This document shows, in pieces, positions 25,770 to 28,660 of a DNA stretch of 37,963 nucleotides (position 1 is its first letter; every line of letters starts with the position of its first letter). A program made the position numbers and the translations under genes. Source of the stretch: Bacteroidales bacterium (GTDB taxonomy: Bacteria > Bacteroidota > Bacteroidia > Bacteroidales > JAIOZK01); assembly GCA_021740625.1 (NCBI GenBank), contig JAIOZK010000011.1:1-37963 (forward strand). Reading direction: 5' to 3'. Below the pieces are notes generated by a model. The model had not been told where the DNA came from. It made no database searches and saw nothing but the letters and a program-made list of their open reading frames with translations.

Positions 25770-27071
25770 GTGCATCATCCCTCAAATACCCATAAGATAA
25801 ATCTGGTTACACTGGGTTGTTCCAAAAATCTTGTGGATTCGGAAGTATTGATGCGGCAGATCAAGGCAAACAACATCGAAATCCTCCACGATTCCAACGA
25901 AATCACAGAAACAGTCATCATCAACACCTGTGGTTTTATCCTTGATGCCAAGCAGGAATCCATCGATACCATATTGCAATTTGCTGATGCCCGTAAGAAA
26001 GGAATTGTTAAAAACCTGCTTGTCATGGGTTGCCTCTCCGAACGATATAAAAGCGAGCTCATTACAGAAATTCCGGAAGTGGATGCTTTTTATGGTGTTA
26101 GCGATTTTGCCCGGATCATCAACGACCTCGGCTTCGATTTCAGGAAAGACCTGCTGGGTGAGAGGTTGTTGACTACACCTGCGCACTATGCCTACCTTAA
26201 AATTGCAGAAGGATGCAATCAGCATTGTTCATTTTGTGCAATACCCGCCATCAGGGGTAATCATCAGTCCAGAAATATCGAGGAAATTATTCGTGAGGTG
26301 GAGAAGCTTGCTGCAAAGGGCGTAAAAGAATTGATTCTGATATCACAAGACCTTACTTATTATGGACTGGACCTTTATAAATCCAGGAAACTTCCCGAAC
26401 TTGTCGATACACTTTGCAAAATAGAGGGCATTGAATGGATCAGATTACATTACCTGCACCCGGCCGGATTTCCGCAAGACCTGATCCCGGTAATACGCGA
26501 CAATAAAAAGGTCTGTAACTACATTGACATCCCACTGCAACACATCAATACCAATATACTTAGATCCATGAGGCGGGGTGTCGACAAAAAGCAGACGATC
26601 GAACTGATTCGTAAAATCAGAGAAGAAATCCCAGAGGCTTATATCAGAACTGCATTCATAATTGGTTACCCCGGTGAAACCTCAAAAAGATATGAGGAAT
26701 TAAAAGAATTCATCCATGAAATGAAATTCGAAAGACTCGGGCTTTTCGCCTATTCACCCGAAGAAGGTACATCCTCTTTTTCAATGAGAAATATTGTCAG
26801 CAAAAAAGTGGTTCAAACCAGAATTGACGAATTGATGAGCTTGCAGCAATCTATTTCCCATGAAAAAAATATGAACCGGATTGGACATACACTAAAGGTG
26901 ATGATCGACCGGAAGGAGGGAGAATATTATATTGGCAGAACAGAATATGATTCACCTGAAGTTGACAATGAAGTCTTAATTGAATCTAAAGCAAAAAACC
27001 TGAGCGGCCACTTGCTTGATGTAAGAATAAATGGTGCCGATACTTTTGATCTTTTCGGCAATATTGTATAA
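25770..27071 (+). CDS. rimO: Ribosomal protein S12 methylthiotransferase RimO
   Basis: RimO adds a methylthio group to Asp of ribosomal protein uS12 using two 4Fe-4S clusters. The 433 residues show the UPF0004 domain with cysteines in VTLGCSKNLVDSE, INTCGFI and MGCLSERY, then the radical SAM motif EGCNQHCSFCAIPAIRG, and a C-terminal TRAM domain ending in GADTFDLFGNIV. The start is a GTG at 25770, since there is no in-frame ATG between the ftsY stop and the first conserved residues. It is the last gene of the rpmG operon. Confidence 0.95.
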   Translation: MHHPSNTHKINLVTLGCSKNLVDSEVLMRQIKANNIEILHDSNEITETVIINTCGFILDAKQESIDTILQFADARKKGIVKNLLVMGCLSERYKSELITEIPEVDAFYGVSDFARIINDLGFDFRKDLLGERLLTTPAHYAYLKIAEGCNQHCSFCAIPAIRGNHQSRNIEEIIREVEKLAAKGVKELILISQDLTYYGLDLYKSRKLPELVDTLCKIEGIEWIRLHYLHPAGFPQDLIPVIRDNKKVCNYIDIPLQHINTNILRSMRRGVDKKQTIELIRKIREEIPEAYIRTAFIIGYPGETSKRYEELKEFIHEMKFERLGLFAYSPEEGTSSFSMRNIVSKKVVQTRIDELMSLQQSISHEKNMNRIGHTLKVMIDRKEGEYYIGRTEYDSPEVDNEVLIESKAKNLSGHLLDVRINGADTFDLFGNIV

Positions 27072-27261
27072 TTTTCCCACATTTGGTAAAGAAAGTTTTC
27101 ATTCTGGGAAAAAATATATTGCACAAGAAAAAACAGAAAAGAGCGTTAAATTTTTAATATCTGGATTTCCCCATATATACTGCAATTATCTATTTAACAT
27201 ATTTTATGATTTTGTTTTTGAATCGCTTACAATAATTGGCATAATAATTGGTTATTATAAT
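27072..27261. other. AT-rich gene-free stretch downstream of rimO
   Basis: No coding sequence is supported here. The stretch is AT-rich with many short runs and no obvious terminator right after rimO. The only structured part follows at 27262. Confidence 0.4.
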
Positions 27262-27390
27262 GTAAGTTCGCAATATTTTGGTTAATAATTAAAGAACTTA
27301 CTTCCGTCCCCGGTGAGGGGACAACTTTCTCATAATTAATAAATTTGGTTTTGGTTGGAGAACCGGGGACGCAAAGTCCCCGGTTTTCTT
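27262..27390 (+). ncRNA. Structured RNA element or attenuator with competing hairpins
   Basis: Three stems are visible: GTAAGTTC / GAACTTAC (27262-27269 with 27294-27301), GTCCCC / GGGGAC (27306-27311 with 27317-27322), and ACCGGGGAC / GTCCCCGGT (27362-27370 with 27376-27384). The third is followed by TTTTCTTTTT, so it has terminator form. The strand CGTCCCCGGT (27305-27314) is exactly complementary to ACCGGGGACG (27362-27371), so stem 2 and stem 3 can both be replaced by a long-range pairing. No known RNA class was recognised. The promoter at 27412 for the next gene lies downstream, so this may be a separate small RNA or the rimO 3' region. Confidence 0.5.
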
Positions 27391-27411
27391 TTTATACATA
27401 TGGATATTTTC

Positions 27412-27419
27412 TACATTTG
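27412..27419 (+). promoter_or_regulatory. -7 element for the MORN-repeat protein gene
   Basis: TACATTTG matches TAnnTTTG, with TTTT at 27389-27392 (19-base spacing) as a partial -33 box. Transcription would start near 27425, 15 bases before the ATG at 27440, and would support MTRSIISF as the true start. Confidence 0.5.
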
Positions 27420-27439
27420 CATTGTTAAAATTTAGCCTT

Positions 27440-28183
27440 ATGACACGCAGTATTATTTCCTTCATCATTTTTGTCTTTATAGCTTCATCACTTTCAGCTC
27501 AAAGTCAAACAGAAAACAACACGGATACGATTAAGAACGGTTTTTACAAAGAAGAAAACGGCCGGTATCACATGGAAGGCTATTATGAAGATGGCATTAA
27601 AGACGGTCTCTGGATTACTTTTCACCCCAACAATATGATCTATAAAGTCCAGAATTATGTAGATGGAATAAAAGATGGTATCGAGATCATTTTAAACCAA
27701 CGTGGATATATCGAATCTCAAAGGCACTATATAAACGGAAAACTGAATGGTCCATTTATTAAATATCGCTATGGCAGCAGACTTGAATCAGAAATTGACT
27801 ATAAAGATGACAAGATTCACGGGATCAAGAAATTATATTATGAGAACGGCAAAGTACAGGAGGAATCTCAATATGTTGAAGGTAAAAAGGAAGGCTATTC
27901 GAAATGGTATACCATGCGCGGTAATTTAATTGCCGAGTACAATTATAAAAATGATGCATTTGAAGGGATCCAGAAAACCTATCATGATAATGACAGCCTG
28001 ATGTCTGTTTCTTATTATGAAAATAATGTGCAGGTGGGAGACTACAAAGAGTATTATGAAAATGGCAACTTAAAAATAGCAGGTCAATACAAAAATGGTA
28101 AAAAGGACGGGAACTGGAAGTATTATGATGAAAATGGAAAACTTAGTGAAGAAGTAAAATACAAAAAAGGGGAGAAGAGATAG
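27440..28183 (+). CDS. Secreted MORN-repeat (YwqK-type) protein
   Basis: The 247-residue protein has a signal peptide (SIISFIIFVFIASSLSAQ). A series of about nine beta-hairpin units of the MORN/YwqK type follows, with the recurring pattern Y-x-(D/N)G-x-x-x-G-x-W, such as GYYEDGIKDGLWITFHP, NYVDGIKDG, YYENGKVQEES, YYENGNLKIAGQYKNGKKDG and YYDENGKLSEEVKYKKGEK. Databases call this family YwqK antitoxin, but no toxin gene is present here and the protein is exported. A structural or surface role is more likely. The stop codon is directly followed by the ATG of the thioesterase gene, so the two are one operon. Confidence 0.8.
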   Translation: MTRSIISFIIFVFIASSLSAQSQTENNTDTIKNGFYKEENGRYHMEGYYEDGIKDGLWITFHPNNMIYKVQNYVDGIKDGIEIILNQRGYIESQRHYINGKLNGPFIKYRYGSRLESEIDYKDDKIHGIKKLYYENGKVQEESQYVEGKKEGYSKWYTMRGNLIAEYNYKNDAFEGIQKTYHDNDSLMSVSYYENNVQVGDYKEYYENGNLKIAGQYKNGKKDGNWKYYDENGKLSEEVKYKKGEKR

Positions 28184-28660
28184 ATGAAGCGGATCATAAA
28201 TCCATACAGGAGACTGGAAGGTTACGATTGTTTCGGGTGTTCACCCGATAATCCCATAGGCCTGCAGATGGAATTTTATGAAGAAGGGGAGGAGATCCTG
28301 TGTAAATGGCATCCTGGCAATCATTACCAAGGATATCATAATATACTTCACGGCGGAATACAAGCCACGCTGATGGATGAGATTGCAAGCTGGGTGGTAC
28401 AAATAAAGTTAAAAACAGCCGGTGTAACTTCCAGGATGAACATCAGATATCGCAACCAGGTACTGGTAACGGATGATGAAATTACGCTCAGGGCACGTCT
28501 CAAAGGAATGCGACGAAACCTTGCAGATATAAATACCGAACTGTACGATTCCAGCGGAAAATGTTGTGCCGAGGCATGTGTGACCTATTATACCTTTTCT
28601 GAAGAAGAGGCCAGGAAAAAGTTGAATTATCCAGCACATGAAACTTTTCACAAAGAATGA
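28184..28660 (+). CDS. PaaI-type hotdog thioesterase
   Basis: The 158-residue protein has the hotdog fold of acyl-CoA thioesterases: YQGYHNILHGGIQATLMDEIASWVV carries the HGG motif at the start of the long central helix with the catalytic Asp/Glu position (DE). The N-terminal CFGCSPDNPIGLQ segment and the C-terminal CAEACVTYYTF are typical of the group. It would hydrolyse a CoA thioester, substrate unknown. The start codon touches the MORN gene stop, which indicates coupled translation. A serine hydrolase gene is convergent with a 1-base gap. Confidence 0.8.
   Translation: MKRIINPYRRLEGYDCFGCSPDNPIGLQMEFYEEGEEILCKWHPGNHYQGYHNILHGGIQATLMDEIASWVVQIKLKTAGVTSRMNIRYRNQVLVTDDEITLRARLKGMRRNLADINTELYDSSGKCCAEACVTYYTFSEEEARKKLNYPAHETFHKE

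Follow-up and report, generated by a model that had tools for sequence, protein, structure and literature searches.

The interval between a rimO-type gene and a MORN_2-repeat protein gene of a little-studied Bacteroidales bacterium probably holds a single-copy gene for a trans-acting small RNA, which would repress a susC-type importer by pairing with the start of its mRNA. In the mechanism that we propose from sequence comparison, an RNA of roughly 105-140 nt would be made from this interval and ended by its own terminator; its positions 27323-27350 would form a 28-nt duplex with the susC mRNA around the site of translation initiation, spanning leader, AUG and first codons, and this pairing would block ribosome entry and shut off the importer. 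A GFO/IDH/MocA oxidoreductase gene, whose start is less perfectly complementary to the same core, may be a second partner. We infer that the element is transcribed, that its effect is repression and that this effect is exerted at the level of translation. Positions are those of the window, the whole 37,963-nt stretch of DNA that was analysed, and a plus sign marks its forward strand.

The genome that carries the window (G000) is a 4.0-Mb draft in 52 contigs; the sole same-genus relative compared (G001) is a MAG, and the comparison of the element rests on these two genomes. The upstream neighbour is the rimO-type gene (UPF0004, Radical_SAM and TRAM_2 domains; 25770-27071, +), which has a counterpart upstream in G001, and the downstream neighbour is the MORN_2-repeat protein gene (27440-28183, +), directly followed by a 4HBT thioesterase gene (28184-28660). 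The order rimO, element, MORN_2, 4HBT is the same in G001, with the element at the matching place. Neither genome has a frame of more than 26 codons in its element, and the ATG frames opposite the element, of 11 and 26 codons, are unalike between the genomes. The reading as a coding small ORF was rejected, as none is common to the window and G001. A mechanical frame of 84 aa (27031-27285) overlaps the end of rimO and stops within the first hairpin of the element.

The conserved part of the interval is a core of 37 nt between the hairpins, CAACTTTCTCATAATTAATAAATTTGGTTTTGGTTGG (27322-27358, +), which is identical in the window genome and G001 and went unmentioned in the original prediction for this DNA. 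Outside the core, 172 of the 295 ungapped aligned columns are identical (58%), and the longest identical run is 9 nt. With up to three mismatches allowed, a 30-mer of the core was found in none of 294 other genomes of the class (own genome only, 1/295, with G001 outside the sample). A search of the GTDB-220 contigs with the pattern TYTCATAATTAAWAAATTTGGTTTTG returned one record, JAIPBS010000013.1, which probably belongs to the MAG G001; records of the own genome may have been left out of this set. On present data the RNA appears to be confined to the genus of the window. The element is single-copy, as judged from a search of the own genome with positions 27200-27420, which gave three matches besides itself, one exact over 28 nt and two of 88% over 32 nt, all of them gene start regions read from the opposite strand.

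The exact match (BLAST E 2.3e-7 in the own genome) identifies the candidate target. The seed within the core (27323-27350, +) is the antisense of a susC start in 28 of 28 nt, of which 17 belong to the leader, 3 are the ATG and 8 belong to the coding sequence. This target site lies on another contig (G000:C43:74474-74501), and the same 28 nt are present at a syntenic susC gene in the relative (G001:C25:56722-56749), which has neighbours of the same kinds on both sides; we take one of these neighbours to be a histidine ammonia-lyase gene. The candidate target susC encodes a protein of 1076 aa that scores above the cut-off of TIGR04056 and contains plug, barrel and CarboxypepD_reg domains, and a SusD gene follows it. 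At the susC start, 39 nt are common to both species despite a protein identity of 41.6%; as a control for start regions, 23 further frame pairs matched by BLAST in these loci have 5-22 nt in common, these being mechanical frames of which several have doubtful starts and some lie on the wrong strand. The longest match of the susC start region to the window outside the element is 12 nt.

Binding calculations that take self-folding of the RNA into account gave a predicted net energy for the susC start of -28.7 kcal/mol in the own genome and -24.3 kcal/mol in G001. The susC gene ranked first among 35 start regions of the own genome (26 genes behind 31 TIGR04056 hits, 5 chosen by pattern and 4 from the window, with starts picked by eye), with the oxidoreductase second (-23.8), a further SusC third (-19.7) and a gene of contig C47 fourth (-18.5), and the median was -6.2 kcal/mol. 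In the predicted full-length fold of the G001 RNA most of the seed's 5' half is base-paired, with an unpaired probability of 0.01-0.26 over 14 positions; parts of the seed are also predicted to be paired in the window RNA, less so than in G001. Because the seed is partly paired in these predicted full-length folds, access to it may require processing to a shorter RNA or the help of a protein.

The 129-nt element folds at -50.1 kcal/mol, compared with -28.7 kcal/mol (sd 3.7) for 200 dinucleotide shuffles, none of which folds as well (0/200; z -5.78). The original prediction described two arms, each with a local partner, and a downstream hairpin followed by a run of T, and we recovered this arrangement. 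The downstream hairpin is an intrinsic terminator of 14 bp with the loop GCAAA (27357-27389, +; stem 27357-27370/27376-27389), and its T tract, TTTTCTTTTT, occupies 27384-27393. The terminator of G001 has another sequence at the same place and a folding energy of -21.2 kcal/mol, as against -26.3 kcal/mol for the window in the same test. Immediately 5' of the seed, the predicted hairpin 2, GTCCCC-GGTGA-GGGGAC (27306-27322, +), is formed by GTCCCC at 27306-27311 and GGGGAC at 27317-27322; G001 has a hairpin of other letters at this place, in a different column register. Further upstream, the predicted hairpin 1, GTAAGTTC...GAACTTAC (27262-27301, +), has 8 bp and is not conserved; since the fold of G001 differs there, this hairpin may not be needed, or the true 5' end of the RNA may be downstream of it.

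A candidate promoter block, TTGGCATAATAATTGG (27236-27251, +), precedes the hairpins; it can be read as having the -24/-12 spacing of sigma-54 promoters or as a poor -7 region of the sigma-ABfr type. ATGGCACAAGATTTGA is aligned with it in G001, and both genomes contain an RpoN-type gene. The pattern TGGCAYN5TTG occurs twice in the window against 1.20 expected, and 33 of 100 shuffles reach two, so that it is not rarer here than by chance. When the interval was scanned with a -7 matrix trained on 18 promoters like those of the FopS small RNAs of Bacteroides, no strong box common to both genomes was found, the sigma-ABfr-like boxes being poor or unshared, and just ahead of the seed there was no FopS-like -7 box. 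By this matrix the best -7-like box of the interval is CACATTTG (window 27078-27085), right after the rimO stop, and its counterpart is not among the best boxes of G001. Separately, window positions 27200-27255 match a stretch of another genome (L006 in G079) at 80% over 56 nt (E 1.4e-6), where the core is absent and the match precedes a gene that is presumably nifN-like; we set this match aside as unexplained or due to chance.

The lack of a good promoter box bears on where the RNA would come from. It could be cut from the 3' region of the rimO mRNA without a promoter of its own and act on susC in the same way, and FopS-14 of B. thetaiotaomicron is described as 3'UTR-derived (PMC11697453); however, about 190 nt separate the rimO stop from hairpin 1, and the TTTTGAA and TGGCAY..TTG blocks hold their spacing in G001. 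This origin, which is compatible with the proposed function, is possible and in our view somewhat doubtful. If, instead, the element were simply the 3' end of the rimO transcript, in which an inverted copy of a susC start happens to stand before a terminator and has no regulatory role, its place downstream of rimO on the same strand, the want of a convincing promoter box and the identity of the core, read backwards, to a start region would all be accounted for. A functionless copy would not, however, be expected to stay identical over 37 nt while its neighbourhood drifted to 58%, and we judge this explanation unlikely.

The start of the GFO/IDH/MocA oxidoreductase gene may be a second target, a weaker candidate with less perfect pairing. 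In what looks like a sugar-type operon, the gene occupies the third place, behind a xylose-isomerase-like TIM-barrel gene and a further GFO/IDH gene, and in both genomes it has CAAAACCAAAT before its start and ATTATGGAAA at the start. The end of the core, GGTTTTGG (27347-27354, +), can pair with CAAAACC before this start, and such pairing would explain why the GGTTTTGG end is kept beyond the susC match. The duplex energies with the window seed are -31.3 and -31.7 kcal/mol, and the predicted net binding is -23.8 kcal/mol in the own genome and -26.4 kcal/mol in G001. This candidate was found by pattern and there are three differences inside the site; given 90% identity of the oxidoreductase protein between the species, there has been little time for the start of its gene to diverge.

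Were the susC 5' region to serve as a sponge or decoy, titrating the RNA or an RNA-binding protein whose true targets are others, the RRM_1 protein genes of both genomes (one in the own genome, two in G001) would offer a possible partner, and the oxidoreductase start of G001 does bind slightly better than susC (-26.4 against -24.3 kcal/mol, with two start regions tested there). The match is, however, centred on the AUG, and repression is the usual outcome of pairing at an AUG; we consider the decoy quite unlikely and retain repression of susC as the preferred reading.

The original prediction had put forward an attenuator or riboswitch with two exclusive foldings, and had offered a stand-alone small RNA as a further option. 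Its pairing holds: CGTCCCCGGT (27305-27314) is the exact reverse complement of ACCGGGGACG (27362-27371). The foldings differ in strength, as the 143-nt stretch has an energy of -34.3 kcal/mol when the alternative helix is forced, against -50.2 kcal/mol otherwise. The alternative helix is also missing in G001, where the terminator part and the stretch ahead of the core have no Watson-Crick complement longer than 5 nt, as against 10 nt in the window. The promoter-like box that had been placed ahead of the downstream gene, TACATTTG (27412-27419, +), is likewise present; it is the likely -7 box of that gene, and TACTTTTG is aligned with it in G001. It is very unlikely that the two foldings choose between terminator and antiterminator in a leader of the downstream MORN gene: the alternative complementarity is exact over 10 nt and a strong terminator stands about 45 nt ahead of that gene, but the alternative fold is weaker by 16 kcal/mol, both genomes have a promoter-like box downstream of the terminator, and conservation lies between the arms and not within them. 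An attenuator would not tolerate arms that are free to change between genomes. Of the two options, the stand-alone RNA is the better one, and the switch does not stand.

Comparison with known RNA families, the other check on the original prediction, gave no Rfam match at the gathering score in the window, in a wider 19-kb stretch or in G001. The best weak matches were L20_leader and ncS16, both of which end on the terminator; L20_leader (RF00558) was rejected at 25.0 bits against a gathering score of 58.7, with a downstream gene that encodes a MORN_2 protein and not a ribosomal protein.

Sites resembling the core were also sought elsewhere. For a 20-nt version, with up to three mismatches allowed, the own genome has 19 occurrences and G001 has 21, compared with 12 and 4 for the reversed control. 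Many of these weak matches are ordinary start contexts of an A+T-rich genome, and we draw no list of targets from them. Start contexts that resemble the core are common, so that it may have originated as the copy of a start region. Across the order, a 22-nt version with up to two mismatches was found in 61 of 393 genomes. Among 81 core-like sites, a set that includes the own genome and G001 and leaves out some of the order-wide matches (for example G368:C66, G362:C83, G097:C96 and G050:C458), none of the 52 gene starts and five of the 29 non-starts, the own element and that of G001 included, are followed by a terminator; a site was classed as a start when it had a correctly placed CAT and an opposite frame that was 80 aa or longer or ran open to the edge of the stretch. 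When the own genome and G001 are set aside, 3 of 27 non-start sites have a terminator, compared with 50 of 3000 random places, which is suggestive only.

Five sites in other families (L144, L165, L122, L147 and L179) are possible sister RNAs. The best of them, L144:501-522 (G215:C91:12288-12309), has no long frame opposite and a terminator behind its core-like seed, and the seed reads AAAAAA instead of AATAAA, like the susC-like starts of its own genome, G215. Three other genomes of its genus yielded only start-site look-alikes and weak matches, so that L144 is a lead and lends no support to sister RNAs. At L165 (G182:C132:4762-4783, minus strand) a core-like seed lies just past a frame of 669 aa and is followed by a terminator of -21.5 kcal/mol, possibly a small RNA of the 3'UTR type in a genome that also has FopS copies. 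At the core-like sites L147 (G158:C39:11720-11741) and L179 (G362:C103:1023-1044), hairpins are visible by eye at a greater distance downstream; both failed the terminator test, and L147 was counted as a start through a frame of 88 aa. A separate group of sites, L125-L127, L140, L142 and L143 (genus label g117), marks paired genes that lie about 8-12 kb from each other and encode SusC-like N-termini (MRKFTIWLTC...); the start regions within a pair hardly differ, as though something held them to the same sequence.

Among the papers surveyed, trans-acting small RNAs directed at susC are described for Bacteroides thetaiotaomicron. An RNA with the same aim that scores far below the FopS model, in a genus outside FopS, suggests an older origin, or repeated origins, for the control of sugar-importer translation by small RNAs. 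We tentatively propose that the susC start is a landing site for small RNAs across much of the Bacteroidales, with lineages carrying different RNAs (FopS, the RNA described here and others unnamed) whose seeds follow the local site, and that in the present genus import by SusC and GFO/IDH breakdown of a sugar would come under one regulator. The preferred reading predicts that seed and susC start should change together.

FopS is the closest known system. In B. thetaiotaomicron, FopS RNAs bind susC mRNAs near the start codon, inhibit in vitro translation of SusC and are opposed in their action by the RRM protein RbpB, and the R1' consensus of the family, which is discussed for the Bacteroidaceae, is GTGTTTTTCATAGTATTAGATTTAAGGTTAACAAA, with a CAT in a place like that of the window seed (PMC11697453). 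Like FopS (RF04319), the element has a seed antisense to a susC-type start-codon region with an intrinsic terminator behind it, and the RF04319 model aligns end to end, weakly, with window positions 27318-27394, which comprise seed and terminator (16.6 bits, E 2). Unlike members of the family, it falls well below the Rfam gathering cut-off of 56 bits, it occurs in one copy as opposed to the 12-15 reported per Bacteroides genome, and the letters of its seed fit its own susC. The FopS seed is single-stranded at the 5' end and has the terminator behind it; here the terminator likewise follows the seed, and in both genomes the seed is preceded by a predicted hairpin, which may or may not be part of the RNA.

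No RF04319 match at E <= 1 was obtained in the own genome, where 150 of 457 first-look candidates were scored; G001 gave two weak matches (E 0.38 and 0.59), both on contigs other than that of the element, and the positive controls L180, L182, L183, L188 and L198 scored 63.2-82.1 bits. The element would be FopS-like in its working and by this test, on Rfam score, is not a FopS member; the two may share a remote common descent. In the order at large, the FopS-type seed motif (up to three mismatches) is present in 77 of 393 Bacteroidales genomes, with 22 family labels by our count. All 20 FopS-type loci examined (L180-L199) have a terminator-like hairpin behind the motif, and RF04319 scored above the cut-off in each of the three motif-bearing genomes tested (G060, G109 and G182).

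GibS of B. thetaiotaomicron binds translation initiation regions through a seed that it has in common with FopS, with a glucan-branching enzyme and a hypothetical protein as the targets reported for it (PMC11697453). The element would be like GibS in being aimed at a translation initiation region, and GibS is set apart by these targets. DonS-type cis-antisense RNAs, encoded in polysaccharide loci opposite their susC-type targets, repress these through antisense pairing, whereas the RNA gene proposed here lies next to rimO with its candidate target on another contig. Finally, the MicA/RybB-type small RNAs of enterobacteria are trans-acting, Hfq-dependent and controlled by sigma-E, and cover the ribosome site of mRNAs for outer-membrane proteins. 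They belong to another phylum and no common sequence is claimed; the proposed likeness of the element to them is one of aim.
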